Assembly: GCA_022059125.1 (NCBI GenBank)
Contig: JAEUWY010000008.1
Span: 930,001 to 994,000 of the forward strand
Direction of reading: 5' to 3'
Length of the DNA stretch: 64,000 nucleotides
From: Corynespora cassiicola
Lineage: Eukaryota; Ascomycota; Dothideomycetes; Pleosporales; Corynesporascaceae
Part shown: positions 2,331 to 56,212 of the stretch, piece by piece
How positions within the stretch are numbered: the stretch's first letter is position 1
Layout: each line of letters starts with the position of its first letter
Program-made: the position numbers and the translations under genes
Notes under the pieces: generated by a model
The model's database searches: none
What the model saw: the letters and a program-made list of their open reading frames with translations, nothing else
What the model was told of the DNA's origin: nothing

Positions 2331-3878
2331 AAAGGGCCGGGGATGATGTACTACAGAAGGCTGGATCTCATTATGGGATGATTGATGAATGACCAAACAT
2401 GAGCTTAACTGATATCGAATGGAAAACACCAGTACTTGACGAGCTGTGTCTGGCCGTGCTGTGGCTGAAGAGGCACTTTTGCCTCGGCGCGGGTCTAAAA
2501 TGGATCGCCATCGATCGCTAACGGTGGTATCCACTCGTCGAATCTCGTGTGTCAGGAAAACTGCATGAGATCTCTTGAGCCCCTGGAGAATTGTCAGGAC
2601 GAGCGTAGGAAAAGTCCGACGAAAGACCGAAATGGCAAGAGATAAGTGATGGACCGAGAACAGAGGCGATGGCAAAGTAGGGCTAGCATCGTGGGCCATG
2701 AAGGAGATGGGGTTCCATCAGTATGGGAGGCCGATGCTAGAATGGATTTACCGAGCGGTGAGTAGGTGGGTGGCTGCGGGAAGGCTCGTAGGAAAAAATT
2801 AAGCTTTTCGTACGGCTCGTGTGGGGAAGTTGGCCCGGACGAGCAAAAGTTGGAGGGCCATGGTACGTCATCCGAGCAATGGTCTGATACGGGTATGCAC
2901 GTGGCGGAGATCTGGGGTAAGTAGATCGTGAAAATCCTCAAGTGAACTAGTTCATGGCCGTCGAAAGGACCACTGCATGTATGGCAGGCTGCGGTGTAGC
3001 TGTAGCTGTAGAGCAGGTAGTGATGATCAGGTCTTCTCCTTTGGCTGTTGGGGTGAATTGACGGCGACAGTCTCAGCCCGCTGCACCGCGGGACGGAAAC
3101 GTGGCCTGGTTGAAGCGGCTGAGGCGTGGTCGACCGAAGAACGAGCATGGTTCGAAGAGTAGACTAGTCGGAGAGGACGGGGGCATTCTCCATCAAAAGG
3201 AGAGGCCCTGGATTTCTATTCCAAGCGAGGGGGCATAGCAAAGGGTACAGTCATGGTGTGGAGACACAGGCTTGGTGTCAGTGAGAGAGATGAGAATAGC
3301 GTCGGTGCGCGAAAAGAGGGAAGGCACAAACGACGCTCCATCGCTCCTGCTGTTTCTGGCATGCGTGCGATCAAGCAAATAATCATCCCGAGCCAGGTGG
3401 ACAACGGCGACACCAGACACTCGCAAACTATAATCTGCCGACCCAGGGCAAGAAAAACAACAACTGCTGCAGGCGCGGTCCTGCCCTGGCGTAAGGTTCG
3501 ATGACAGGATCCAGAAGTGTTCGCTGGTGTTGGCGGGCGTGAATGCGTTCCCGGCCTAGTGCGCCGATCGGCACCTGCAGAGCGCTAGTGCCCGATGCAG
3601 CCTAGCCCGATATCTCCCCGTGTCTGCACCTCACTTCACAGACAGGAAGCAGGAGAGCGCGTCAGTCCATCGCCCACACCCACCCGCTGTCCATACTGGC
3701 ACCCCTCCACTCCGCGCAATCGCCCGTCCGATGAGCATCCCGCTGCCTGCTTGCCTGGAGTGCTTGCGCCTGGGTTAGCCTGCCGTGGGCCCTACTGCAC
3801 TACGGCCGGCGCGTTACTGAGCTTGCACTCAACTTTACCCTTTGTCCGCCATTTTATCTACATTCCGCCGCTTTCAAC
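2331..3878. other. Intergenic (1.5 kb), no gene recognised
   Basis: Both strands carry open frames (2193-2699, 2594-3148 and 3193-3426 on minus; 3595-4107 on plus), but none shows a domain, splice-linked continuation or protein-like composition. The last 40 bases before the NTO1 start are pyrimidine-rich, as in many fungal leaders. Confidence 0.5.
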
Positions 3879-41840: not shown

Positions 41841-44332
41841 GGTGGGCGATTGTGAGGTGTAAGGGGGTAGAGATGAGGGAGGGTTCAAAATGGTGGATGT
41901 TGAGAAATCGACCCGCGGTACGGGGTGGGTAGCCTTATAAAGACCCCTATGAGTCGAAGTTTGCCTTCTCGAACGTCTGACGAATTTTCCTCCACTGCAT
42001 TATTAACTAGTCTCCGACGTCGCCGTTGAACATTTTTAATTGGGTATATCTGTGCATGGACCAGATGGATCTGTAGGAGATCCAAGGCCCTCCCCGAGCC
42101 CGTCCGGTCCTGTCTCTGTCCGACATGGCCACTAGTGTGGAGTGCGGAGAAGTGGACTCATTTCGTCGCTTCGCGGTAGTAGCGCGTGAGGCAGTTAATG
42201 TCACTGCGGCTGCATGGCACCATGTCTCGCGACGGATTTTTGCAGAAGCAGAAAGTGGGACGCCATTTGTAATAGTTTGCCATTAGAAGGATATGTAACC
42301 GTAGAGCTCCACATATGATGTTAGAAAATCTTAGGCCGGGGTTGTCCCGCTCGGTCCGGCCGACCCATCGGATGCCGGTTCCTGACCGATGATGGACCTG
42401 CATTGGCAGAGGGCGATCAATTCCCTTCCAAACTACGTCGCTCATGACATAGGCCAATTTTCTACGCCCCTCGGTTATACAGATTTTCCGACGGAAAAAG
42501 TCTGCATGCGAGGGCGACCTAGTATCGAAGAGTGACATCTGGTCGAAAGGAGTCGCGCAGGGCTCATCAAAAGAGCATGGAGCTTTTCGGAGTAGAATAG
42601 TTTAGGAAAAAAGCGCCAATAAAATCTGCCTTGATTCTCATCAGCTCACGCTAGATTCTTGGGAGCATCTCCAACTCCACTCTTCCTCCTTTTGCGATGA
42701 AACTATTACACATAGTTGGAGCTTTGGGCTGGTCTGGTAGCCTCTCAACGACCCTGAATTTGATGAGAACACGTTTCCCCAGGCAGCCCACAAGTACCAC
42801 ATGTCAAAGGAACCTTGTAGAGTTGCGTCTTGGGGTGCGGAGGAAATAGGCTTTGACGGAAGCTTGGCGGGTGTTTTCAGCGCATACGTCTTCGCGGAGA
42901 CCGATCAAAAGCAACGAGACGAGAATGCAGCACGGGCTGAATAGTGTATCCCACGCCAGTCCGAAATGAGCAGCTTGAAAGAGAACGCGCCGACACCGAC
43001 CTTCCTATTCGACTTGAGCCAAGTTCTTCGCTTGACAACACATCTGACGTCGCAGCAGGTAGTGGTTGCCAGTACGGAAGACACGGCTGCTAGAAGACCG
43101 AGGTATTCTTCGTCGAATTCGGGATCTTCTTGGGATAAGACGTGAATCTCGGCATGAGCTGTATGAGTATCGCGATCATAATCAGTCAGATAGAGATCTC
43201 GCCTACACCGCGAGATCTACCAACGCCTCCACCATAGACAATATGGGGTGCAGCTGCTTCACCCCACTACGATTTTCTTGGGTCGATTAGAAGGATTTAG
43301 AGATCTGGGGAAAGGGACAGGCAGGGTACACAGGCTTGTTGCACGCAATGCCTGGTAGTAAGCACCCAAGAGACCCACATGCTGTCCCATCGGTTATCAG
43401 CGGCTGTAGAAGAACAGAACAACAGACAGACCTCCGGGGAAAAACAAACTACGGGAGTCTGCAGGAAGCACGGGGAGGCCGAAATTAGAATGATCGACTA
43501 AGTATGCAACCAAAATCGAAATAGAAACGAAGGTGGGTATGTTGAACTTGAGTACATAAAGGCGCACTCTTCGTTCGGCGGGAACGATTGGTAGGAAAAG
43601 TTCCATTCTTCTTCGATTCGTGCCTAGGTATCAAAGACCTTTACCAGCCTTCAACGCAACCATGTGATGGCTATCATTTTTTCATTTAGGCTTACTGTGT
43701 CTCCATAATCATCTATGCTCATGCTGGTGATCGCTTAAGAGAGATGTATTTGAGGTCAGAGTCCCTACGAGCGGCTCCGAGAGAGAAATGGAATATTCCT
43801 AACTTTCCAGTGTGATCCATGGAAGGAATCCAAGCACTTGGTGTAGTAGATCTGGAGAAGAGGTAAGTCCGTTGATATGGATAGTTCAGAGGGGCGAAGG
43901 CGTGTTCGCGTGGTGTTCGACGGCATCCATCTTTTGCAGATCTAACACGTCATTATCAACGAGACCGGACAATGCTTCTTGTGTGGATATCGTGCGTAAT
44001 TTTCATCTGATAGTTACTATATTTCAACATTGTAGACTCCCGTCTCCTGTTGAGGCCGGATATTGACGTTGGCGATGGCGGCTGGTGGCGGCGAACTCAG
44101 GGGAGAAAAAATCGGACGTCGGAAGTCGGCATCGCCAAGACGCCATTACCTAATTAGCCTCCAGACCCTCAACGTTCGAGAATCGACTGACTGCAAGCTT
44201 GGATTCATCTAGATAGAAAGGCACCCATGTCATGAGTGGAAATTTTTCATCTACTATATTTACACAAGGGAAAAAGAGTCTCAAATGCAAAGGTTCCCGG
44301 ATGGTTGGAAGAGACTCCATATCTTTAGCCTT
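41841..44332. other. Intergenic (2.5 kb) between permease and giant repeat gene
   Basis: The left end holds the permease promoter with a TATA-like element at 41935-41942. The rest shows only short frames: a 53-codon plus-strand ORF starting at 42967 and a 74-codon ORF at 43066-43290, neither with a domain. No repeats, RNA genes or transposon ends were recognised. Confidence 0.45.
41935..41942 (-). promoter_or_regulatory. TATA-like box of the permease gene
   Basis: On the minus strand the sequence reads CTTTATAA about 95 bases before the ATG at 41840, a suitable distance for a core promoter. Confidence 0.4.
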
Positions 44333-47300
44333 TTAGATGCCTAGGTACTCGAACAGTCCCCTGATCGGCCTCCGATTTCGCTTTGTCCACGATGGTGGCC
44401 AATTCCCTTGGACCCAATTTTCTTCATCACCAATCTGAAAAGGCGTTCCATCACCTTGATTAGGCTTCTGTTCCTCGGACAGCTGCTTGAACACCATCAT
44501 CGGACCTTCCCAATATTTTCCGCCCCAGTGATCAGACCAAGATTGGCCTGGGTTCGCAGCATCATCACCTGATAGCGCCGAATTATGCTCGTCATCAGAT
44601 TGCCCGTACAATTCAGCTGACGGAGTATACCAAGGCGAATAGATTGTGCTGGTCAATGTTTCCCGTGGACATTGATACGTTGTGGATGTCGCGAGCTGAA
44701 ATGCGCCATCCGAGAAGAACGCGTAGGCTTCATAAATCCAGTAGCCGTACCCTTGCCAGTTTTCCCCTTCCGCAGAGAAATCCCAATCACAGCTGCAGGC
44801 ATAATCGCCTTCTAGCTCTTCTTGTAGGCCTTCAGATCCAGCAAACCATTCACAAGGGCATTTATCGTCGAACAACCACTCATCCGGAACCCCTTCGTCT
44901 TCATCTTCCCAGTCCGAAGGATTGTCATAATAAGGGAAATAAGGAAGATGTGGACGGGGTAGATAAGGATAAAGAGGTTCTGGATCAGGCCAAGGTTTCC
45001 CAGTTGCCGGAGGCTTGCCCGAAGTAAGAGAATCACTTGATACAGTTGGCGACGGAATCGGATTCGAATTTGGCCATGACTGCGGTAGCTCATCTAAGTC
45101 CTCGGTACTAGTAGATACAAGTGTCTGGTCCGTGGAAATTAAACCTGGATTTGATTGCTCTGCCTCGATTGGCTGCGAACCACTGGATTGAAATGATGAA
45201 GACGTGTTAGATTCCTGGCCTGTATTTGGGCCTTTAGAAGTAGGCTCATCTATTGTCCATGAAGGAAGTATGTTCGGCATTTGTTGTTGCGCGGAGGGAG
45301 ATGCCGATGTAGTACTAGGCTGGGTGAATGAAGGTGGAATTGATATAGAGCCTGTGGTGAGGCGTGCTGGCGTACTCAGTGGTGGGCCTGGCCACATAGT
45401 TTCGCGTGGACCATCAAATCCGCTGAAAGATGAGCTCTTAATTTGGTTCAATATATTAGCGTCGGTAGATTCCAGTGAGTGGAACGATACTGATGCAGAT
45501 TCAGATGGAAACCTAGACTGAGTTCTCGAGGAAGACGCTCTCCTAAGTGGACTGTTTGTAGATGTATGTACTAGGCTTTGAGATGGAGGTGTATTTGAGT
45601 CATCTGACACGGGTTCTGGCCGATTGCATAAACCAAAACCGTTATTACATCCGTCTCCACAAGTCTCAGCATCATCGCCACAGAAGCCGTTTCTTCCGCA
45701 GCATTGCCCGAAAAAACTGCCTTGACAAGTGTAATCCCAGTCGTTTCCACACAGGCCATTCGGAGAGATGCGGAGAACAGGTGGAGATATCGAAGCGTCA
45801 TAGGTAAATGCGGTTATCGGAATTCGTGTGCTTCTTTCTGGAATAGGAGCCATGAGCGTGATTTGCGTTTCGCTTGATGTGACTGAACTCAGGAATCTCG
45901 AGGATGAAGGTTGGGAGCTAGTATCAGTCAACGAGAGCAAGTTTTTAGAACTGAGCGAACTATGGCCGTTCATTCGACCTGTTTGCGACGACAGAACTTC
46001 AGAGACAGATGAACCAAGTTTAGCGCTAGCAGGAAAGGGCTGTGTCCTGGAGTTTGACATAACTGTGTTGCTAATTCGGCTTGTGGAAAACGGAACTGCT
46101 TCAATGGTAGGTGTTTTGGATACATTACTATATGATGTCGAAATGGTAGCAGAATTTGATGCGAGGGAATGTGTGTTTATATGAAGTGAGTTGGGGTCTG
46201 GTCTGGTCGAAGATGGCTGCGTAAGGGTCTTCCTTGAGTCAAAAAATGGGTCGGTTGAAGAGAATTGAGTACTGAGCTCGAGCGTACTCTGAGTATTTGT
46301 AACGCTTCCTGTCGAGAACGACACGCCTTCAGGAACAAGAGAACTTCTAGGTGTGTAGATCTTTGGTGCTGGAGTTCCGGCTGCATTCTTTTTGATCATA
46401 GCGCAATACCCCTCAGCGGACTGTGCGGGTCCTATTGATTCTTTCAGAGTACAGACTTTGAGGTTGTTGTAAACTACCCCTGCGCAGAGGCTATTCCTAG
46501 AGCATCGCTGAATACATTGTGATAACGATAGCAAGAGGAACTGCTGTCCTGCTAAATCTCCAGAAATACGATTCACCCCGCATTCCACTTGAAATATTGT
46601 TGAAGATTGATAGTACTCTTGGCTGTCTGAAACACCGCAGCAAGATACAGCAGTCGTCTCTGGCTGATATGATAAGCCATTGGAGTTAATCCTAGTTTTC
46701 AAAATGGAGTTAGTTAATGAACTTGTTATCAGGCTTTCGGAGATGCCTAGTTCAAGAATTCTGGTGGTAGAAGAAGCTGAAGCGTAAAGAACTCCCATAG
46801 AACTCGTAGCTTCTTTCCCAATGGCATTACTCCTGCTACCACCGCTACTGATGGAGCTCCGGCTATCTATATCTGGTCCTGTATTGAGACTATTCTGTGC
46901 CCCCGTAGATCTTGATGAAATGGTGAGAATTGTTGTAGAGATTGCATTTGATAAAGAAGACAGCCTAGAAGGTGAGTTCGATATCTCAATGGTTGAATAG
47001 ACAGTCAAAAGTCGGCCTCCAGTGCTGGCTTCAGAAGAAGGGCTGACGTTTAAGCTATAACTTGACAATTTTGTCGATAAAATACTGGCTATGAAGTCTG
47101 TGCTGGATGATTTAGTGATTGGTTCGGAATAGTGTGTATTCGTCGACCTTGGGTTCTGCAAAGGTCCGGTAGGAACTGTTTTTAAAGAAAAACTGCTCCG
47201 AGTGGATTTCAAGTTGATATCCGTAACCAAAAAATTGGTAAAGTCCCCTGAAGTAGGAGTATAACTAGGTGCACTTAAACTGAGGACCGTAGACGAAGCA

Positions 47301-50300
47301 TAAGTCGATGCCGTAACTGACAAGACAGAAGGTATTGCTGGTGAGAATAATCCTGCGGTGGTTGTAGTTGGCGCGGAAGTCAATGATGAGACGAACAAAG
47401 ATGCAGATGATGAAGAGGCGTTTGGTGAAACTATAGTAGACAACGACGTAGCTTCCATTGACGAGAGACTTAACGACATTTCCGTAGGTAAGGATGACGC
47501 AATTGGCTCAGCAGAATTCTGTGATGCGGAAGATTTGACATCAGAACTTGATTGTACCGAGTCTCTTGTGGCTGCACCCATACTGGGGTTCGTGGTCGAA
47601 GCTCGTCTATTTGTACTTGGTGTGGAGCTTGTATGAACGCTGTCGCTTGCTGTATAATAAGTTGCAGGCGTAGCTGAACTTGAAGCCGTAAATCCCGAAC
47701 CGACCAATGACGAGATGGTTTCAATGAGGACTTTTGAGTCTACAATATATGTAGTTGTGCTGCCATCAATAAGGCCACCACTGCTGGCACTTTTCCCGCT
47801 GGACACAGTAGAGCCAGTACTTGATTGCTCTGTCGATGTCCAAATTGACTGATCTTGAATCATTGAAGTTATTTTAACATATGAAATTTCTTCATCACTT
47901 CTGCTTTGTCCAACGAGTATCAAAGATGAAGCAGTGCCCTGGGCTGCACCATTGGATTTCATCAAAATTGCCATTGATGAGCTGGCGGAAGTCGATATTG
48001 TAGCTGTACTTGCTAATAATTCTCCAAATGGCTCTCCAGATGATGTTCTATATGAGATTGATGACACAGAGCTCATCAACGTGGAGGCTGAGGCTCGTTG
48101 CGTCAATGACGTCATAGCTGAATATACTGAGCTCGCAGTAAATCCAGGTATACCGGACTGCGATGAGAGGAAAGAGGGTAGAATTGAATCAGGAGAAAGA
48201 CTAGTATTCGTTGGATTCGCACTAGGAGACAATGAGGAGGTGCTGAATGCGTCGACTTTGCTATTTGTAAATGAAGAAGACGGCTTTGCACTACCTCCGG
48301 GCAGATTGAGGCTCAAGCTCAATTCAACGAGCGGAGGGTATGATATTGAAGCTGAACTTGTAGTAACAGTGTATAATGTGGTTCGTGACCCTTCACTTTG
48401 TCTTGAACTTGTTCGTAAGGTGGCAGATTCCAATGAAGATCTGCTTTCTCCAGGGACATTCAAACTTAGATTGATGTCGATCAATGGTTGATTAGATACA
48501 GCATAGGTAGACGATGAGACATAGGTGATGAGAGTCGATTTTGATGATGGTGAGGATCGAATTTTGGAGTCGCTCGACCAATGTAGTCCCGAGGAACGAG
48601 ATATTTCGCTCTGGATAGTTCCAGATGGTCTTGTTGGTAATCCATTGGACGTGATATCCCACAAAGAAGAAAATCCTGAGGTTAAACTCGGTGTGTCGCT
48701 GGCTTTGGTTGAATAGCTTCCGTCTACTGCCATGTATGACGAGCAGCCCGCCTCCCCGAGGATTTCGAGGCACAGACTGAGGTCTATTAAAGATTGTTTC
48801 ACCACCGAACGACTGGCAGTAGCTGACAAAGGTAATGTGCTTTGGCCCATTGCATTGGTAGTAGACGAATAATTATCAGTAAGTAGGCTAAAGCTCAGTT
48901 CAAGGGCAATAAGCGGCGGCAGTGTAGGTTTAGATGTCCCTGAACGACCAGATTGAACACTAGATGGGCCCGAAACCATAGCAGAAGATTTCCAGTTTAG
49001 CATATCAAGGACAGTTCCAAGATTTATAAGCGAGCCTCGACTGCTGGGCTGCCCTGTTGGAGATGTCGATACGAAGGCCGGGCTTGATGATAATAATCCG
49101 GATTGCGTGGCTGTTGTGATAGATGCCGAGCTGTATGAAACCCCATCCACTACACTAAGACTCAATTCCACATAGATAGGTGACCGAACTGTACTTGATT
49201 GTCTGGAGGAAATCGGAGAAGGGGTCGATTTTATTGTAGTAGAAGATTGAGAGCTTGAAGAAACTAAATTTGATCGAATTGAGCTGGGTGGCTGAGAGGT
49301 TCCAACATTAAAGAACCCCAAGCTAAGGCTGAGGTCAACCAGCGGGGGCCGCGGTGTTGCTATACTTTGGGACGGCTTCGGAAGTGTCGCTTTTGCTAAA
49401 TCTTCAGATCTACTAGAAGCCATAGACAAAGCTAAAGTTAATGTGGAATATCTCGGTAAGCTGAAATAGTTTCTTGAACTTCGTGAAGAGGTTGCTGAAT
49501 TCCCCAGTCCAAGGCTGAGGTTTAGATCGACAAGAGATATAGCCTTAGCTGAAGTTGATACCGAACGAATTCCGTCCGAAGAGCTGAGTCCACTACTAGT
49601 AACTTGGAATCTCGTTGATGATGCCGATAGGGGGTTGGAAAATCCAAGACTCAGGTCAACGTTGATAAGGTGCGAATTAAATGTTGAGGATGATAAGCTA
49701 CGGGTACTTGTGGGCGAATAACTGACAAGTTTACTCGTGGAGAAAGGATTTGTGATGACGGAAGAAGAAGGACCTGCGGTATGTGCAACCTCGAGACTGA
49801 CACCAAGGTCAATCAATGGCTCATTTGTCGTGTGAGTAGGAACGCTCCCTTGTGGTGCAGTATTTGATCTTGATGTAGTAACTAGGCTATTGACGAGACT
49901 GATTCCTGTATGTTGCTGAGATACCAATGTTGAAGATTGAGATATCACTCCATTCAGGATACCCAGACTCAAGTCGATATCAATTAAGCCTTGGCTAATG
50001 GACGATAAAGGAGTGGAGAAAATAGTTGGAGAACTCAAGCTGCTATGAGTCGAAGAGCTATAGCTCATAGCACTAGATGTCCCGATATCAAGATTAATCT
50101 CGATAGTTGGAGGCCTACTTGTTGTAGATGTAGTCTTTCCACCGCGAAAGGGACCAAGAGGGTTTCGACCAGTTCGTACCAAAGATGTTGGATGCAGAGA
50201 CCAAGACGATGATGTCCTCGATATGCTTGTTGGAGAGGAAGACAAGATCGTTGCCTCATTCATAGGGTATGTCTTCTGTGACCTTATTGTGGACGATGTT

Positions 50301-53300
50301 GACCAGCTTGCAGAAGAACTCCGATCAGCTAGTTCAACACCAAAATCTAGGCTTACACCAATTAAGGGGTCCTTCTCTGATAAACTATTCGACTGGACAG
50401 GACTCAAGCTAACATAATCGGAAAAAGTAGAAGTCTTAGATACCTCCGTTTTTTTCGGCAAACTAGAGGTGTTGCTTTCACCCTTCGTTGCCGATGGATG
50501 AGAGACTGAGCCATCCATAATGCCAAGACTTGAGCCCAGATCGACAAGTGTTCCGATTCCAGGTCTATCGGTTCTCTGAATGGATGTAGGTGACGTAATC
50601 GTAATATGTATAGCTGTATCAGTGGAAAGGGTGAGAGCGGACTTCTTGGATGTGGAAAAAGACGGTGTCGCGACTCCGATGTCGAGTTCTAAACTGACAT
50701 CAAGAAAATTCGGGCTGCCTTGAGTCGATGTTGACGCCTGGCTACTTTTGAAAGATGAATTCTTAACTGTGGTTGAATCAAAATCATCAGATGGGATTGA
50801 AGTTGTCGGTTGCACGCTTGTGGCAGCAGACGAGGACCGCTGCCCGCCGCCTATTACAATGCTAAGCAATGGAGGCCGATTGTCTGTCCCTGTTTCCGTA
50901 GCTTCCAAACTGGAAGGGACGTCTTCCGCCGTTGACGAGTTTGAGCTGCTTAAAGAACTTCCAATGCTAATGCCAAGGTTCAAACTAGCCTGAATCAAAA
51001 GTCCTCCAGTATTTTGAGTTGGTAAGGGAGTTGTGACGATGCTATCCGAAAAACCTGACTTGATCGATCCTGGCCTGATGCCTATATTAAAGCTTGCCTC
51101 AAGGAATGGATTATTGGTTCCAGAAGGAGTAATCGAAGTAACCTCTTTACTCAAGATTGATGATGGGGATGCTTTGCCAAGATCCAAGTCCAGTCCAAAA
51201 CTGATCAGAGGTAAGTCTCTCGAATTCGTTGGCAACAGTGTGCTAAGATTTCGGCTCAGACCCAAACCATGGCCCAAGTCGACGTTTAGGATACTACTGC
51301 CAGAAGATTGCGACCAGGAACGACTGGTCTGTTGAGTTGTATGGCTCCCTCCCAGCAGCTCGACATCAAGAGAGAAAATACCGAGATCCGCCGTAGCACC
51401 GATCAATGGCTGTTTAGTCTTTGCGACAGAGGTACCTTCTCTGGAGATGGTGTTCATAGTGGCTAATGATTTTGAAGAAATGGTTTGCCCGTTCCTGCTA
51501 GTTGGGGCAACTCCAGTTTCAGCAGAGGTAGCAGTTTGAGGAGGAAGTGAATTTATCCCCAACCCGATCCCAATATCTAGACTCGCCTCCATAACGGGCT
51601 TAATATTTGTGGGCGAGGGCCAGCGGAAAGCGGAGATCGGCAATTTTCCGAAGGGTTTCGATGTAGGTAATGAGATGTCAGAGCTCAGGTTAAGTCCCAA
51701 GCTAGCATCGATTAGGTCTGGAAGTCGTGTACGCTGGGACGCTCCGGCTTGAATATCAGGCAGAAAGTTTGTCGATGACGGCTTGTTTTGAGATGCAACT
51801 GAAGTTGAATCTGATGGGGTTGAAACATCTGATAATTGTAAAGCTGTTGTCTTCACTGGAATGGTAGGGGTCGCACCCAGTCCAAGCTCGATATCCAGGC
51901 CCACACTAACTAATGGTGCTTGTATAGATGGCTTCAGCGCAGAAGTACTACTCAATGTGGACCAATCATTATCGGATGTAATGGGGGCAACCGAAGAAGT
52001 AGATCCAACACCAGCTTCGAGATCCAAGCTTGCTCCTACAAGAGATGGAGAAACGCTTACCGAAGCAGACTGCCCTTTGGTAAGGTTGTTGAATTCCTGA
52101 GTCCCAGAAGAATTGCTCAACCCCAGACTTACATTCAATTCTATGAGAGATTTGCCCGCGGTTGTTTCCGTTACGTGAACAGTACTTTCCCGATCAATCC
52201 CCGGCAGATTCAAAAGCCCACTAATAGCATCTTCACCGAGAGGTAATCCAGTGAAGTTGAGAGGCCTTGGAGTAATTTTAGTGGCTATAGTACTCTTAGT
52301 AGCTTCATTTCCAAGGCTTAATAAATCAAGTAAATCTGGATAAGAACTTCCGGTCGATATCGCAGGAGATTGTGGTACGACGCCTGCGGCAAGATCCAGG
52401 CTAGCTTCAATGATTGGCTTATCGGCTCCCTTGGAAATAAGGGTAACCAGGATTGCTGAGGGTTCGAAAACTGGTTGAGACGGTAAAATGTGTATCACGT
52501 TGCCTGTAATTCCGTCGGTGTAGCTACTCGGTGGAGAAGCGCCGAGACCTACGCCCATCTGAAAACTGGCTTGTATGAGCGGGCTACCAGTCTCTGAAAG
52601 CAAAGTCTCAGTAGAAACCATCAGTTTAGTTTCATGCGAAGTTCTCGTCAGTGTCGTGGGGAGGTTTGGCTGGTCAGTCGAATCGGAAACTAATATGGGC
52701 CGGGCATCGACACTTAAGCTAACACCCAGCAGTTTTCCATTTGTTACTGAATTCGCCTGTGATGAGACTCCAACTTCAATGTCAGCAGTAGTTGTGATGA
52801 CAGGCTTTATTGACACTGGGCGTGTTGCTTCGCTGGAAGAGTCGGATGTTGGCAACGGAATGCTCCCAAAATCGAGTCCTAAGCTTGGAAAAAAGCCATC
52901 TAAAAAGCCCTGTATGCCCCTAGAGGTCGTAGGATTAGCTTGAAAGGAGATCTTCCCAAGCTTATTGACATCTAATCCCAACACTGAAAACACATTACTC
53001 AATAAAGTGCCTAGGGAGCTGGACTGTGTTGGCCTAAGCGATGCCTCTGACTGTAAGTCTATAGTTGATACTCCTAGAGGAATACTGGTGAGGAGATTTA
53101 TATCAAAGAAAGACTGAGTTGGTACAGATAGTAATGGCGGCATCGTCGACGAGGAGCTTGTCGGTATCAGGGCAGACATTCCGAGATCGAGATCCAGATC
53201 TGAAGTTGCACTCAAAACGGCCTCGGCTGAACCCATGTCCAATGAAGTTGTAGGATTAGGCAACAAACCAAGTGAACCTGAGAGTCCTAGCCCAAGATCT

Positions 53301-54454
53301 AGGCTTGCTTGAAGTAGAGGCTTGGTTTCTCGAGTAGGTACCTCGTTTGACGAAGTGACACCATCGAGACTCACACTCAAGCTTGTGCCAATCCCTGATA
53401 CCCCAGCAGACAAAGTAGTGGTTATTTTCGGCCCAATACCTAGCCCCAGATTCATGCTTGCAGTTGAAAGTTGGGTATCCACATTATTTGTTGCTTCTTT
53501 TAATATTGTTACTTTTGGAAATAGATTGGAAGGGATAAGCAGCATAAGAGACTCTCTTGGCCAGTGTATGCCAAGGTCCACGCTGAGATATGACAGCATA
53601 AGCTCGAGCTGGCTTTCTGTTGCCAAAATGAGACCTGCAGGTGATGTAACCATTGGAGGGACTGTAGTATCCTCAGTACTGGGCGAATTTAGCCCAAGTC
53701 CGATGTCAAGGCTTGCTCCCACCAAGGACTTTTGTGCGGAAATGACAGGAGTCGAAACAGCAGCCGAATATGAAATGGTAGGCAGTCCAGAAGAAGATGG
53801 ACGACTCGACTGTCCTAATCCAAGGCCAACGTCCAAGCTTACGCTCAAAACATGTCCAGTACTGATTGATATACCCTCAGGCGATGCTAAGGTTGATGAT
53901 GCTGAAGAAGAGCTTGAGATCGTGGTGACTAGCGAGGTTCCAGCTTCGACAGGAGATGAGGAAGTATAGGCCGCGGAGGGGCTTGATGTAGTAGATGATG
54001 AAGCATTAACTGGAACTAGTCCAATGATCCCATTCGATTGTATCAGAGATCCCACAACCTCCTTCACAAGCCCATTTGCTACAGCCAGAACTCCCGGTGT
54101 CCCCTTCAGCGAACATCTTTGAGTCGCTCCGTTGTATGTTGCCCCCACACAGTAAGGACTGCCGACGCAAGCATCGATACACACACGCAGCAGAGGTGTG
54201 ATTTGGACCAAAAGTTCAGCTTGAGCGATATTTCTACCACATATGACTTGGAATTGTCGATCTCCGTCAACGTAGGTAGAGCCATTTCTGTACGTGTTGC
54301 CGGCGGCATCACCGCATGTCAGCGGTGTCAATATTCCCGGAACAGGATTGAAACCTGCAAACTGTGGTAGCGCGGCTACCAAGTTAAAAATAAAAAAGAA
54401 TATCAGAATATGTCGCAAACAGCCCGAAAGTGGACCAGAACTTGAGGTTTTCAT
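44333..54454 (-). CDS. Giant secreted Ser/Thr-rich repeat protein with PAN-like and chitin-binding modules
   Basis: One intronless frame of 10,122 bases codes 3,373 residues. The start is the ATG at 54454, which gives a clean signal peptide (LRHILIFFFIFNLVAALP); the frame also opens 13 codons earlier at a TTG. Order: PAN/apple-like Cys module at about 70-117 (VICGRNIAQAE to YCVGATYNGATQRCSL); about 35 repeats at about 200-2055 of a motif like PLIxxSLDLGLGL or PLVDLSLSLGL, 40-80 residues apart in Ser/Thr/Pro-rich linkers; a Ser/Thr stretch; a second PAN-like module at about 2620-2672 (FQVECGVNRISGD to NLKVCTLKE); a CBM18-like chitin-binding module at about 2897-2946 (GLCGNDWDYTC, GQCCGRNGFCGDD, GCNNGFGLC); and an acidic, Trp/Tyr-rich end with CPCEWF and ACSCDWDF. 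No GPI signal or membrane anchor is visible. It is probably a glycosylated cell-wall or matrix protein; an adhesin or surface-fibre role is inference. I know no named family with this architecture. Confidence 0.85.
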   Translation of the reverse strand: MKTSSSGPLSGCLRHILIFFFIFNLVAALPQFAGFNPVPGILTPLTCGDAAGNTYRNGSTYVDGDRQFQVICGRNIAQAELLVQITPLLRVCIDACVGSPYCVGATYNGATQRCSLKGTPGVLAVANGLVKEVVGSLIQSNGIIGLVPVNASSSTTSSPSAAYTSSSPVEAGTSLVTTISSSSSASSTLASPEGISISTGHVLSVSLDVGLGLGQSSRPSSSGLPTISYSAAVSTPVISAQKSLVGASLDIGLGLNSPSTEDTTVPPMVTSPAGLILATESQLELMLSYLSVDLGIHWPRESLMLLIPSNLFPKVTILKEATNNVDTQLSTASMNLGLGIGPKITTTLSAGVSGIGTSLSVSLDGVTSSNEVPTRETKPLLQASLDLGLGLSGSLGLLPNPTTSLDMGSAEAVLSATSDLDLDLGMSALIPTSSSSTMPPLLSVPTQSFFDINLLTSIPLGVSTIDLQSEASLRPTQSSSLGTLLSNVFSVLGLDVNKLGKISFQANPTTSRGIQGFLDGFFPSLGLDFGSIPLPTSDSSSEATRPVSIKPVITTTADIEVGVSSQANSVTNGKLLGVSLSVDARPILVSDSTDQPNLPTTLTRTSHETKLMVSTETLLSETGSPLIQASFQMGVGLGASPPSSYTDGITGNVIHILPSQPVFEPSAILVTLISKGADKPIIEASLDLAAGVVPQSPAISTGSSYPDLLDLLSLGNEATKSTIATKITPRPLNFTGLPLGEDAISGLLNLPGIDRESTVHVTETTAGKSLIELNVSLGLSNSSGTQEFNNLTKGQSASVSVSPSLVGASLDLEAGVGSTSSVAPITSDNDWSTLSSTSALKPSIQAPLVSVGLDIELGLGATPTIPVKTTALQLSDVSTPSDSTSVASQNKPSSTNFLPDIQAGASQRTRLPDLIDASLGLNLSSDISLPTSKPFGKLPISAFRWPSPTNIKPVMEASLDIGIGLGINSLPPQTATSAETGVAPTSRNGQTISSKSLATMNTISREGTSVAKTKQPLIGATADLGIFSLDVELLGGSHTTQQTSRSWSQSSGSSILNVDLGHGLGLSRNLSTLLPTNSRDLPLISFGLDLDLGKASPSSILSKEVTSITPSGTNNPFLEASFNIGIRPGSIKSGFSDSIVTTPLPTQNTGGLLIQASLNLGISIGSSLSSSNSSTAEDVPSSLEATETGTDNRPPLLSIVIGGGQRSSSAATSVQPTTSIPSDDFDSTTVKNSSFKSSQASTSTQGSPNFLDVSLELDIGVATPSFSTSKKSALTLSTDTAIHITITSPTSIQRTDRPGIGTLVDLGSSLGIMDGSVSHPSATKGESNTSSLPKKTEVSKTSTFSDYVSLSPVQSNSLSEKDPLIGVSLDFGVELADRSSSASWSTSSTIRSQKTYPMNEATILSSSPTSISRTSSSWSLHPTSLVRTGRNPLGPFRGGKTTSTTSRPPTIEINLDIGTSSAMSYSSSTHSSLSSPTIFSTPLSSISQGLIDIDLSLGILNGVISQSSTLVSQQHTGISLVNSLVTTSRSNTAPQGSVPTHTTNEPLIDLGVSLEVAHTAGPSSSVITNPFSTSKLVSYSPTSTRSLSSSTFNSHLINVDLSLGFSNPLSASSTRFQVTSSGLSSSDGIRSVSTSAKAISLVDLNLSLGLGNSATSSRSSRNYFSLPRYSTLTLALSMASSRSEDLAKATLPKPSQSIATPRPPLVDLSLSLGFFNVGTSQPPSSIRSNLVSSSSQSSTTIKSTPSPISSRQSSTVRSPIYVELSLSVVDGVSYSSASITTATQSGLLSSSPAFVSTSPTGQPSSRGSLINLGTVLDMLNWKSSAMVSGPSSVQSGRSGTSKPTLPPLIALELSFSLLTDNYSSTTNAMGQSTLPLSATASRSVVKQSLIDLSLCLEILGEAGCSSYMAVDGSYSTKASDTPSLTSGFSSLWDITSNGLPTRPSGTIQSEISRSSGLHWSSDSKIRSSPSSKSTLITYVSSSTYAVSNQPLIDINLSLNVPGESRSSLESATLRTSSRQSEGSRTTLYTVTTSSASISYPPLVELSLSLNLPGGSAKPSSSFTNSKVDAFSTSSLSPSANPTNTSLSPDSILPSFLSSQSGIPGFTASSVYSAMTSLTQRASASTLMSSVSSISYRTSSGEPFGELLASTATISTSASSSMAILMKSNGAAQGTASSLILVGQSRSDEEISYVKITSMIQDQSIWTSTEQSSTGSTVSSGKSASSGGLIDGSTTTYIVDSKVLIETISSLVGSGFTASSSATPATYYTASDSVHTSSTPSTNRRASTTNPSMGAATRDSVQSSSDVKSSASQNSAEPIASSLPTEMSLSLSSMEATSLSTIVSPNASSSSASLFVSSLTSAPTTTTAGLFSPAIPSVLSVTASTYASSTVLSLSAPSYTPTSGDFTNFLVTDINLKSTRSSFSLKTVPTGPLQNPRSTNTHYSEPITKSSSTDFIASILSTKLSSYSLNVSPSSEASTGGRLLTVYSTIEISNSPSRLSSLSNAISTTILTISSRSTGAQNSLNTGPDIDSRSSISSGGSRSNAIGKEATSSMGVLYASASSTTRILELGISESLITSSLTNSILKTRINSNGLSYQPETTAVSCCGVSDSQEYYQSSTIFQVECGVNRISGDLAGQQFLLLSLSQCIQRCSRNSLCAGVVYNNLKVCTLKESIGPAQSAEGYCAMIKKNAAGTPAPKIYTPRSSLVPEGVSFSTGSVTNTQSTLELSTQFSSTDPFFDSRKTLTQPSSTRPDPNSLHINTHSLASNSATISTSYSNVSKTPTIEAVPFSTSRISNTVMSNSRTQPFPASAKLGSSVSEVLSSQTGRMNGHSSLSSKNLLSLTDTSSQPSSSRFLSSVTSSETQITLMAPIPERSTRIPITAFTYDASISPPVLRISPNGLCGNDWDYTCQGSFFGQCCGRNGFCGDDAETCGDGCNNGFGLCNRPEPVSDDSNTPPSQSLVHTSTNSPLRRASSSRTQSRFPSESASVSFHSLESTDANILNQIKSSSFSGFDGPRETMWPGPPLSTPARLTTGSISIPPSFTQPSTTSASPSAQQQMPNILPSWTIDEPTSKGPNTGQESNTSSSFQSSGSQPIEAEQSNPGLISTDQTLVSTSTEDLDELPQSWPNSNPIPSPTVSSDSLTSGKPPATGKPWPDPEPLYPYLPRPHLPYFPYYDNPSDWEDEDEGVPDEWLFDDKCPCEWFAGSEGLQEELEGDYACSCDWDFSAEGENWQGYGYWIYEAYAFFSDGAFQLATSTTYQCPRETLTSTIYSPWYTPSAELYGQSDDEHNSALSGDDAANPGQSWSDHWGGKYWEGPMMVFKQLSEEQKPNQGDGTPFQIGDEENWVQGNWPPSWTKRNRRPIRGLFEYLGI
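48295..53865 (-). repeat. Array of about 35 diverged SLDLGLGL-type protein repeats
   Basis: The array lies inside the giant gene. Copies nearest the N-terminus read like GASLDIGLGL, QASLDLGLGL and EASLDIGIGLG; those towards the right end of the protein read DIDLSLGI, DLNLSLGLG, DLSLSLGFF and ELSLSLNLP. Hydrophobic residues alternate with Asp/Ser/Asn, the pattern of a beta strand. Copies differ at the codon level and spacing varies, so the array is old and not a recent tandem DNA duplication. Confidence 0.8.
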
Positions 54455-55230
54455 CTCAGCAGATATCTTGTACAAAGACGAATGAGTTACCAATCAAACG
54501 CTGTCGAAGTGACTGGTTAGATGTATTGACAAAGGCATGAACGAAAAGGGTATGAAAAGCGGTTGTGTATGGGGAGACTGAGATGGAGCGCTTCTAGGAT
54601 CTTGAGCATACTGATAACTAGGCTGCGAATGGTGGACCATATCGGGACGCGACGCGTCAGTGCCGTGTAGGCGTATCAACGTCGGAGCATTCAAGCGTGT
54701 CGGAATGCTGTTGTAACTGTCCGTAGGCGCGAACTGAGGGCAGCCGTTTGTGATTGGACTGTCAGTCCTGGAATGGAAAACAAGGTTATGGGGAATCAAA
54801 TACAGCCCACCACTGATCTCTTCGACACCCCCGGTACGTACCAAGCGGGCAGTCTCAATTAAACTGTCCCCACAATGAAACAGAAGGCTCACAAAGCAAG
54901 CTTTATCCATGATGTGATCCGTTAGATGGGTCAACGCTACCGAGGAGTAGAGCCCTCCGGAGCCGACTGCCTTGCTAAAGGGTGTATGAAATATAACATA
55001 TTTCCCGCTGTGGGAAGTGGCACCCAGCCAGCTGGTAGTTTACGGTAAAAGACTGCCCGATCCGAATGTTCTGCATCGTTGATACGCGGCCCGAGATCGA
55101 GTAGCGTAAGTAGTAGTTCGGCAAGGGAGCTTGGCTGACATTACACAGCAGAGGGACAGTCAGCGCCCCGTCAAGAACACTGATTAGAATTTGAGATGCA
55201 GGATTCTTTGGGTAAAGCCTAGTCGGTAAG
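54455..55230. other. Promoter region of the giant gene and 3' end of the SDR gene
   Basis: Both flanking genes lie on the minus strand, so this holds the SDR 3' end and the giant gene's promoter. A minus-strand frame at 54494-54934 (ATG about 24 bases in) is open but shows no domain. No TATA box is clear. Confidence 0.4.
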
Positions 55231-56212
55231 CTACATTTTTGAAGCCCGCAGCTTGGTGCTGTCGACTCTCTGCCCCTCATCTGCCTGCTCTTTGACCGTA
55301 AGATCTGGAAACTCGGCTGGCATGATCCGCCGCGGCTTGGACCCTGGCACAACATTGTACTTTTCGAAATCCGTGACACCAGTCTTGCGCAGGAAATCTT
55401 CATCTAGCTCAAGACAGCCATTTACGTCGGGAGCTGGGGCACGAAGCATAGCCAGAATCGCGTCGGAATAGATGGTCGGCTTCCTGAGGTCATTCAAGCT
55501 TTCTCGTGCTACATTGTCTGTGGCCGCTGATTGGATCGCAACCGCGGGCCAGATGCTGGTAATGGCCATGTCTTTCTTGCCCTCGCGTTCCCAGTCCATG
55601 GCTAAGCCTTTGGTGAGCACGCTCATGCCAATCTTGCCCATTGCATAGGCTGTCTTTCCTCGAAAAAAGCGCGAGTAAATCGGTGGGCTGACCACGATCA
55701 AGCGACCCTTCCATCCATTTTTTTCAAATTGGGGGAGGGCCGCCTGTACGGTGCCGTAAAGCCCTTCGACGTTGACGCGTTGCATCAACTGGAATCTCTT
55801 CATTGGTGTCTTTTCAACACTTGCCCACCATATAGCGCCGGAATTATAGACTAGGACGTCCAGGCGACCGTAAGTCGCAACAGTCTGCTCTATCATGCGT
55901 TGTATGCTGCCATAGTCTCGAGTGTCAACGACAATGGCTGTCGCGTCTCCTCCCACCTCTCGTATCTCGCGTTCGACGGTGGATATGGTCGAGTATTTCG
56001 AATTGGGATCGGGCGGGAATGGGTGTACTTTGGACGCGTCGGACGTGCTCTTTGCTGCGACAACGACTGGACAAGAGGTTAGCAGGCGCAAAACCACGCA
56101 GCGGCGCCTACTCACCGGCATACCCGTTTTTGGCCAAATCGATGGCCACTTGCCTCCCAATCCCTCTTGAAGCTCCTACGACGAGGGCAACCTGCCTCCG
56201 TGACGGCGCCAT
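55231..56212 (-). CDS. Short-chain dehydrogenase/reductase, HSDL2-like, with peroxisomal C-terminus
   Basis: NAD(P)-dependent oxidoreductase of unknown substrate. Exons 56212-56116 and 56066-55231 give 310 residues. The cofactor motif is LVVGASRGIGRQVA (TGxxxGxG type, residues 9-22). Exon 1 ends at KNGYA and joins VVVAAKSTSD. VDTRDY, LVYNSGAIWW (NSG for NNAG), VVSPPIYS with the catalytic Ser, and the YAMGK catalytic Tyr/Lys pair follow in order, then SIWPAVAIQSAAT. Long specificity loops resemble the HSDL2 group, which is peroxisomal in animals. The protein ends in SKM, which fits the PTS1 pattern (S/A/C)(K/R/H)(L/M). It is divergent from the GST kappa gene across 372 bp. Confidence 0.88.

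Follow-up and report, generated by a model that had tools for sequence, protein, structure and literature searches.

A giant single-frame protein of Corynespora cassiicola carries an array of short, strand-patterned motifs alongside PAN and hevein-like modules

A stretch of 64,000 nucleotides from Corynespora cassiicola (hereafter the window, part of a genome of 44.35 Mb in 23 contigs) contains an open reading frame long enough to raise the question of what kind of protein it encodes, and whether the short repeats within it belong to any described family. Scoring of 47 of 2,206 candidates yielded thirty-five 5S rRNA matches, dispersed over 11 contigs of the genome, and its ribosomal protein L3 reached 444-446 bits with three PDB chains, from Chaetomium and Neurospora, compared to 377-394 bits for the remaining 12 of the 15 matches listed; taken alone, these two observations suggest a filamentous ascomycete, perhaps close to the Sordariomycetes. 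Translation bore out the single frame of 3,373 codons that had been claimed in a preliminary description of the locus and placed it on the minus strand, no strand having been named before: the ATG lies at 54454, the stop codon ends at 44333, and the 3,373 residues are closed by a single terminal stop. From stop to stop the frame measures 3,386 codons. Under an independent-base estimate with its own base composition, a run of this many open codons would be expected at any one position with a probability of about 10^-73, and the openness of the frame is not due to chance. No intron is needed to keep it open; inside it, 10 stretches look like introns and have lengths that are multiples of three, but they partly overlap and were counted without a shuffled control. 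Its features are collected in Table 1.

Table 1. Features of the giant open reading frame, with positions in the window
Feature	Residues	Position	Strand	Basis
Whole open reading frame, 3,373 codons + TAA		44333..54454	-	translation
Signal-peptide-like N-terminus	1-28	54371..54454	-	by eye on translation
First PAN module	47-118	54101..54316	-	Pfam PAN_1, cysteine spacing, PDB 4a5v
Repeat array, 28 motif copies in Ser/Thr-rich linkers	201-2051	48302..53854	-	weight matrix, alternation counts
Ser/Thr-rich (41%) linker without motif	2061-2600	46655..48274	-	composition, run count
Second PAN module	2605-2684	46403..46642	-	Pfam PAN_1/PAN_4, likeness to first module
Hevein/CBM18-like module, 8 cysteines	2902-2943	45626..45751	-	own-genome relatives, Cys spacing
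C-terminal tail	3166-3373	44336..44959	-	composition; no confident fold

Inspection of the translation by eye revealed the basic start, the subsequent hydrophobic stretch and the Ala27-Ala28 pair of a signal peptide, as had been proposed. At the other end, the C-terminal tail is 24% charged, contains five cysteines and is rich in Trp and Tyr, and no hydrophobic GPI-type tail was seen by eye at the C-terminus. An AlphaFold2 model of the C-terminal 480 residues, made without relatives, reached a mean pLDDT of 37 and was too poor to use.

The array is built on an 11-residue motif with the consensus [PS]-L-[IVL]-x-[ALVI]-[SNG]-L-[DS]-[LI]-[GE]-[LIV], in which columns 2, 3, 5, 7, 9 and 11 are mainly hydrophobic and columns 4, 6, 8 and 10 are polar or small. 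An iterated weight matrix returned 28 copies scoring 14.4-25.0, where the threshold, 7.9, corresponds to 0.5 false matches per shuffled protein; the seed consisted of 20 stretches hand-picked by eye from the same protein, and these scores are therefore partly circular. Counting alternating hydrophobic runs uses no seed and thus provided an independent measure of the motif. Runs of at least four numbered 28 in the whole protein compared to 4.1 +/- 2.0 (maximum 11) in 500 shuffles, and 28 in residues 161-2060 compared to 2.9 (maximum 9) in 300 shuffles. None was present in 960 residues of the other Ser/Thr-rich linkers of this protein, and five control Ser/Thr-rich open reading frames from the same genome (407-715 residues, 2,983 in all) gave 0, 1, 0, 0 and 0 runs. 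With looser runs of at least three, 41 were counted against 22.6 in shuffles (maximum 36), which leaves any further copies uncertain. The repeat noticed earlier is real, but its count of about 35 comes down to 28 by the matrix and by the seed-free count alike.

The copies start at residues 201, 243, 379, 574, 625, 680, 769, 804, 847 and 913 (copies 1-10), 953, 1016, 1082, 1116, 1152, 1249, 1302, 1363, 1449 and 1489 (copies 11-20), and 1546, 1595, 1640, 1704, 1847, 1888, 1990 and 2041 (copies 21-28), with an irregular start-to-start spacing of 34-195 residues. Together they make up 308 of the 1,851 array residues, about a sixth. Cys is absent from 27 of the 28 copies and Trp from all of them. 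The motif has two regional subtypes: Ala occupies position 5 ten times among the first 18 copies and never among the last 10, while at position 8 the first 18 copies have D ten times and S three times, versus D once and S eight times in the last 10 (Fisher p 0.008).

Same-residue codons agreed among motif copies at 0.281, compared to 0.248 expected, and no tandem DNA repeats were found at 43000-56000. With synonymous codons chosen almost at random and no tandem DNA repeat left, it is the protein pattern that has been kept and not the DNA, which is what one expects if the copies are old and maintained by protein-level selection while the linkers drift freely. A recent tandem duplication, or a simple-repeat artefact, was rejected on the same two observations.

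The hydrophobic moment at 180 degrees was 2.87 for motifs versus 0.79 for linkers. Judged from its residues, the motif is an amphipathic beta-strand pattern; the 180-degree value is not independent support, because it restates the alternation. A helical motif is unsupported, the moment at 100 degrees (the helix angle) being lower in motifs than in linkers (0.44 versus 0.79). An AlphaFold2 model of residues 1480-1720, from the single sequence, placed strands on all five motifs and two strands elsewhere, with 37 of 49 strand residues falling within motifs where 11 were expected; at a mean pLDDT of 35, this model adds little beyond the restated alternation. On AGGRESCAN values, the mean aggregation score was 0.41 in motifs versus 0.13 in linkers, and 2 of the 28 motifs scored higher than the 95th percentile for linkers. 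This simple scale thus gives no support to a classic amyloid core, and with such modest scores the strands seem better fitted for pairing, docking or contact with interfaces than for a strong amyloid core. Ser and Thr together account for 35% of linker residues versus 13% of motif residues, and from this composition only we infer that the linkers are O-glycosylated. KR/RR sites are absent from the array, the four in the protein lying elsewhere (residues 2283, 2971, 3358 and 3361); a Kex2-processed peptide precursor was rejected on the absence of any such site from the array.

The PAN-like modules mentioned in the preliminary description are two in number, and PAN_1 exceeds its Pfam cut-off (21.4 bits) in both. 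The first scored 22.8 bits over residues 86-118, has cysteines at positions 47, 72, 92, 96, 102 and 114, and resembles the apple-domain micronemal protein 4 (PDB 4a5v) by sequence with an E of 0.0039. The second, when cut out, scored 22.3 bits for PAN_1 and 25.9 for PAN_4 (cut-off 27) over about residues 2628-2674, and its best match among PDB sequences was only at E 0.31. The two modules are 34% identical over 72 residues (E 0.02), and the whole protein scored 34.9 bits for PAN_1 and 27.7 for PAN_4. With both models above their cut-offs, the giant protein is, on Pfam scores, a member of the PAN/apple group.

The CBM18/hevein scaffold consists of eight cysteines with a central CC. All eight are present in residues 2902-2943, at steps of 8, 8, 1, 6, 7, 4 and 7, so that this stretch has the scaffold. 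Chitin_bind_1 in Pfam gave it 15.7 bits, under the cut-off of 27.8, and nothing in the PDB matched it below E 0.99. Searching the genome with residues 2880-3373 gave 17 matches, one being the gene itself: nine, on four contigs, fall in the CBM18-like stretch with E from 4e-9 to 2e-4 (one has an internal stop), four more fall there with E from 0.003 to 0.03, and three match weakly in other parts of the query. The earlier claim of a chitin-binding module is supported by the eight cysteines and the own-genome relatives, but not by Pfam. Six successive CBM18-like matches, the last two overlapping, were seen on a 116-kb contig (C22:104493-105675).

Similar modules occur in other settings in this genome. 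One locus (L046, C5:3031500-3038500) carries, on one strand and in adjoining frames, CBM18-like, PAN_4-like and multicopper oxidase modules: a first frame holds a CBM18-like pair (recognised by eye), a PAN_4-like match of 20.6 bits (cut-off 27) and the start of the oxidase, and more oxidase domains follow in the next frame. To judge by this layout, it is probably one secreted oxidase gene with introns. As these parts are joined there, such modules are plausibly generic wall-targeting parts. Chitin_bind_1 was likewise not reported by Pfam for the CBM18-like pair of this locus at E 0.001; the model may therefore have low sensitivity for fungal modules of this kind, or they may not be true CBM18 modules. 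Another locus (L022, C19:523334-526474) has three WSC domains and a PAN_4-like module in one frame, PAN_4 scoring 23.0 bits in one scan and 29.1 in another (cut-off 27). Two overlapping loci (L032 and L033, C1:502049-506929), each with one weak PAN_4 match under the cut-off, form a near-perfect palindrome, being reverse complements at 3084 of 3105 positions; this is either a true palindrome or an assembly fold-back.

Is the array known from elsewhere? Within the genome, residues 190-1180 and 1440-2060 were used as queries (residues 1181-1439, with three copies, lay outside them), and each returned only the gene itself at E up to 10, with three candidates scored in either case. Pfam gave no family for either of these two pieces at E up to 10, and NCBIfam gave no match for the whole protein. 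In the PDB, the best match by sequence to residues 1440-2060, the piece compared, had an E of 1, and the best match to the motif profile was at chance level (RbmA, E 0.94). Residues 1440-2060 found 60 stretches in prokaryote genomes and the C-terminal 494 residues found 6 pattern stretches in viral contigs, with no relative among them; these collections are non-fungal and say little. Among the papers listed by searches of the open-access literature, none mentions an array of this kind in its title or in the opening of its abstract, and an article that lists a PAN-domain secreted protein of Sclerotinia makes no mention of one in the part available (PMC4480369). The array thus appears, provisionally, to be undescribed so far. 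The statement that no described family has this arrangement holds within Pfam, NCBIfam, the PDB, the array parts in their own genome and the open-access literature only.

The above findings are consistent with a secreted protein of the wall or matrix, probably not GPI-anchored and held by chitin and glycans, whose strands act as multivalent stickers; we give this reading about even odds (roughly 0.5). What the sequence provides is anatomy alone, and every functional step of the working model is one that we infer. The protein would be secreted via its signal-like N-terminus and, by analogy with BAD-1, would be released and then rebound, its CBM18-like and PAN modules retaining it on wall chitin and glycans. 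O-mannosylated linkers would hold the chain extended, and the recurring strands, with their L-x-L-x-L faces, could serve as multivalent stickers that pair within and between chains. Such pairing may cross-link a wall layer or an extracellular glue. The interpretation offered in the preliminary description is partly supported: the Ser/Thr content of the linkers and the PAN and hevein-like modules are what a very long, Ser/Thr-rich protein secreted to the wall or matrix would show; a role as an adhesin is no more than possible. The modest aggregation scores and a CBM18-like module that falls short of the Pfam cut-off speak against the wall-polymer reading.

Precedents, by analogy, exist for single parts only, in BAD-1, Flo11, Rep1 and CBEL. 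BAD-1 of Blastomyces resembles the giant protein in its secretion signal, long repeat region and C-terminal-side chitin-binding module, and it has no GPI signal, as is probably true of the giant protein (PMC6023273, section 10; PMC3708853). Putative adhesins of filamentous ascomycetes commonly contain chitin-binding domains (PMC6023273, section 10); the secrete-and-rebind layout is therefore not new and may be widespread, and the new part is the array. The repeats of BAD-1 are tandem, Cys/Trp-rich and 24 residues long, with 41 counted (PMC3708853), whereas the giant protein lacks tandem Cys/Trp-rich units of about 24 residues and has 11-residue Cys-poor strands in long Ser/Thr linkers, together with a hevein-like and not an EGF-like module. 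The Flo11 flocculin of yeast and the Als adhesins also carry short beta-prone sequences within a glycosylated repeat stalk, and Flo11 adhesion nanodomains require a threshold number of them (PMC8457840). However, a GPI signal is present in Flo11, along with two to four amyloid cores (VVSTTV, VTTAVT) (PMC8457840), whereas the giant protein has 28 strands in which D, S or G occurs and whose aggregation scores are modest, and no GPI-type tail was seen in it by eye. Rep1 and Hum3 of Ustilago maydis likewise hold many amphipathic repeats in one secreted protein, but these are 34-55 and 31-36 residues long, respectively, and mostly separated by Kex2 sites (PMC4617103), while the array here has no KR/RR. 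CBEL of Phytophthora, a wall protein aiding adhesion to cellulose, combines PAN/apple with a carbohydrate-binding module; it is an oomycete protein with CBM1 instead of CBM18 and two units of 113-114 residues, and no strand array is described in the available part of the source (PMC4617103). Closest at hand are the CBM18-PAN-multicopper oxidase and WSC-PAN proteins of the same genome, which share PAN_4-like and CBM18-like modules but differ by their oxidase or WSC domains and have 0 and 1 alternating runs.

A more specific proposal, which we advance only tentatively, is that the protein represents a new class of matrix protein, a chitin-tethered "stickers-and-spacers" polymer of dozens of amphipathic beta-strands and O-glycosylated disordered spacers. 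The strands would then assemble into a reversible network or an interfacial film, with the CBM18-like and PAN modules as the tether. If true, this would be a giant counterpart of hydrophobins and repellents, without disulfide fold or proteolytic cutting.

Alternation of hydrophobic and polar residues is the pattern of interface-seeking strands, and the motifs have it. The protein might thus be a surface-active coat, its strands adsorbing at air-water or hydrophobic surfaces and its wall-binding modules tethering the film, which would make hyphae or spores water-repellent or attach them, in the manner of the peptides that are processed from the smut repellent Rep1. Rep1 and Hum3 are amphipathic repeat proteins, and Rep1 peptides form surface-active amyloid-like fibrils (PMC4617103), but Rep1 acts as peptides cut by Kex2, for which the array offers no site, and the motifs are only about a sixth of an array whose linkers are Ser/Thr-rich. 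We consider this coat rather doubtful.

Retention of an 11-residue unit at irregular spacing amid drifting linkers, and its two regional subtypes (position 8 D early, S late), would also be compatible with a docking array, in which a partner protein adds each motif as a strand and the scaffold concentrates a secreted partner on the wall. Pfam families were recognised in 6 of 8 neighbouring open reading frames (FMO, amino acid transporter, SDR, DsbA, Ap4A phosphorylase and alcohol dehydrogenase) and in 6 of 9 in a second scan (IBR, EPL1, PHD-like, kinase, patatin and dehydrogenase), yet those scanned gave no functional hint and suggest no partner, and we regard docking as unlikely.

GC3 of the giant gene is 0.40, versus 0.55-0.69 in 13 other open reading frames of the window, which were picked mechanically and whose frames are not all verified. 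It is lower in all 18 amino-acid families tested and stays at 0.35-0.45 along the whole gene. Weak expression or a recent arrival of the gene could possibly explain this; low expression would be unexpected for a structural wall protein and in that case counts against the wall reading. Together with the absence of an own-genome paralogue of the two array pieces, the low GC3 favours a nearly neutral Ser/Thr-rich protein whose motif is a relic of a former duplication with no role of its own. That the 11-residue pattern persists while codon choice is near-random, and that no stop interrupts the frame in 3,386 codons, make such a relic improbable. Mimicry of the plant EAR motif, with LxLxL cores acting on the co-repressor TOPLESS, is very hard to credit: the protein has 14 LxLxL matches (overlaps counted) versus 3.6 in shuffles (maximum 11 of 1000), and the EAR consensus comprises LxLxL and DLNxxP, the latter found in fungal effectors that bind TOPLESS (PMC8126959), but DLNxxP and DLNxP are both absent, I, V or F replaces L in many motifs, and 3,373 residues with chitin-binding-like modules would make a poor candidate for plant-cell entry.

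Adhesins of filamentous ascomycetes are far less studied than those of yeasts: of the articles whose title contains "adhesion", 58% concern yeasts and 10% filamentous ascomycetes (PMC6023273). A repeat that survives solely as a protein-level strand pattern is easy for alignment searches to miss. The oxidase of the same genome with its CBM18-like and PAN-like modules suggests that such parts are reused for wall targeting. If the motif works as a sticker, a class of wall polymers could be searched for by this signature, and simple peptides would provide a system for testing it.
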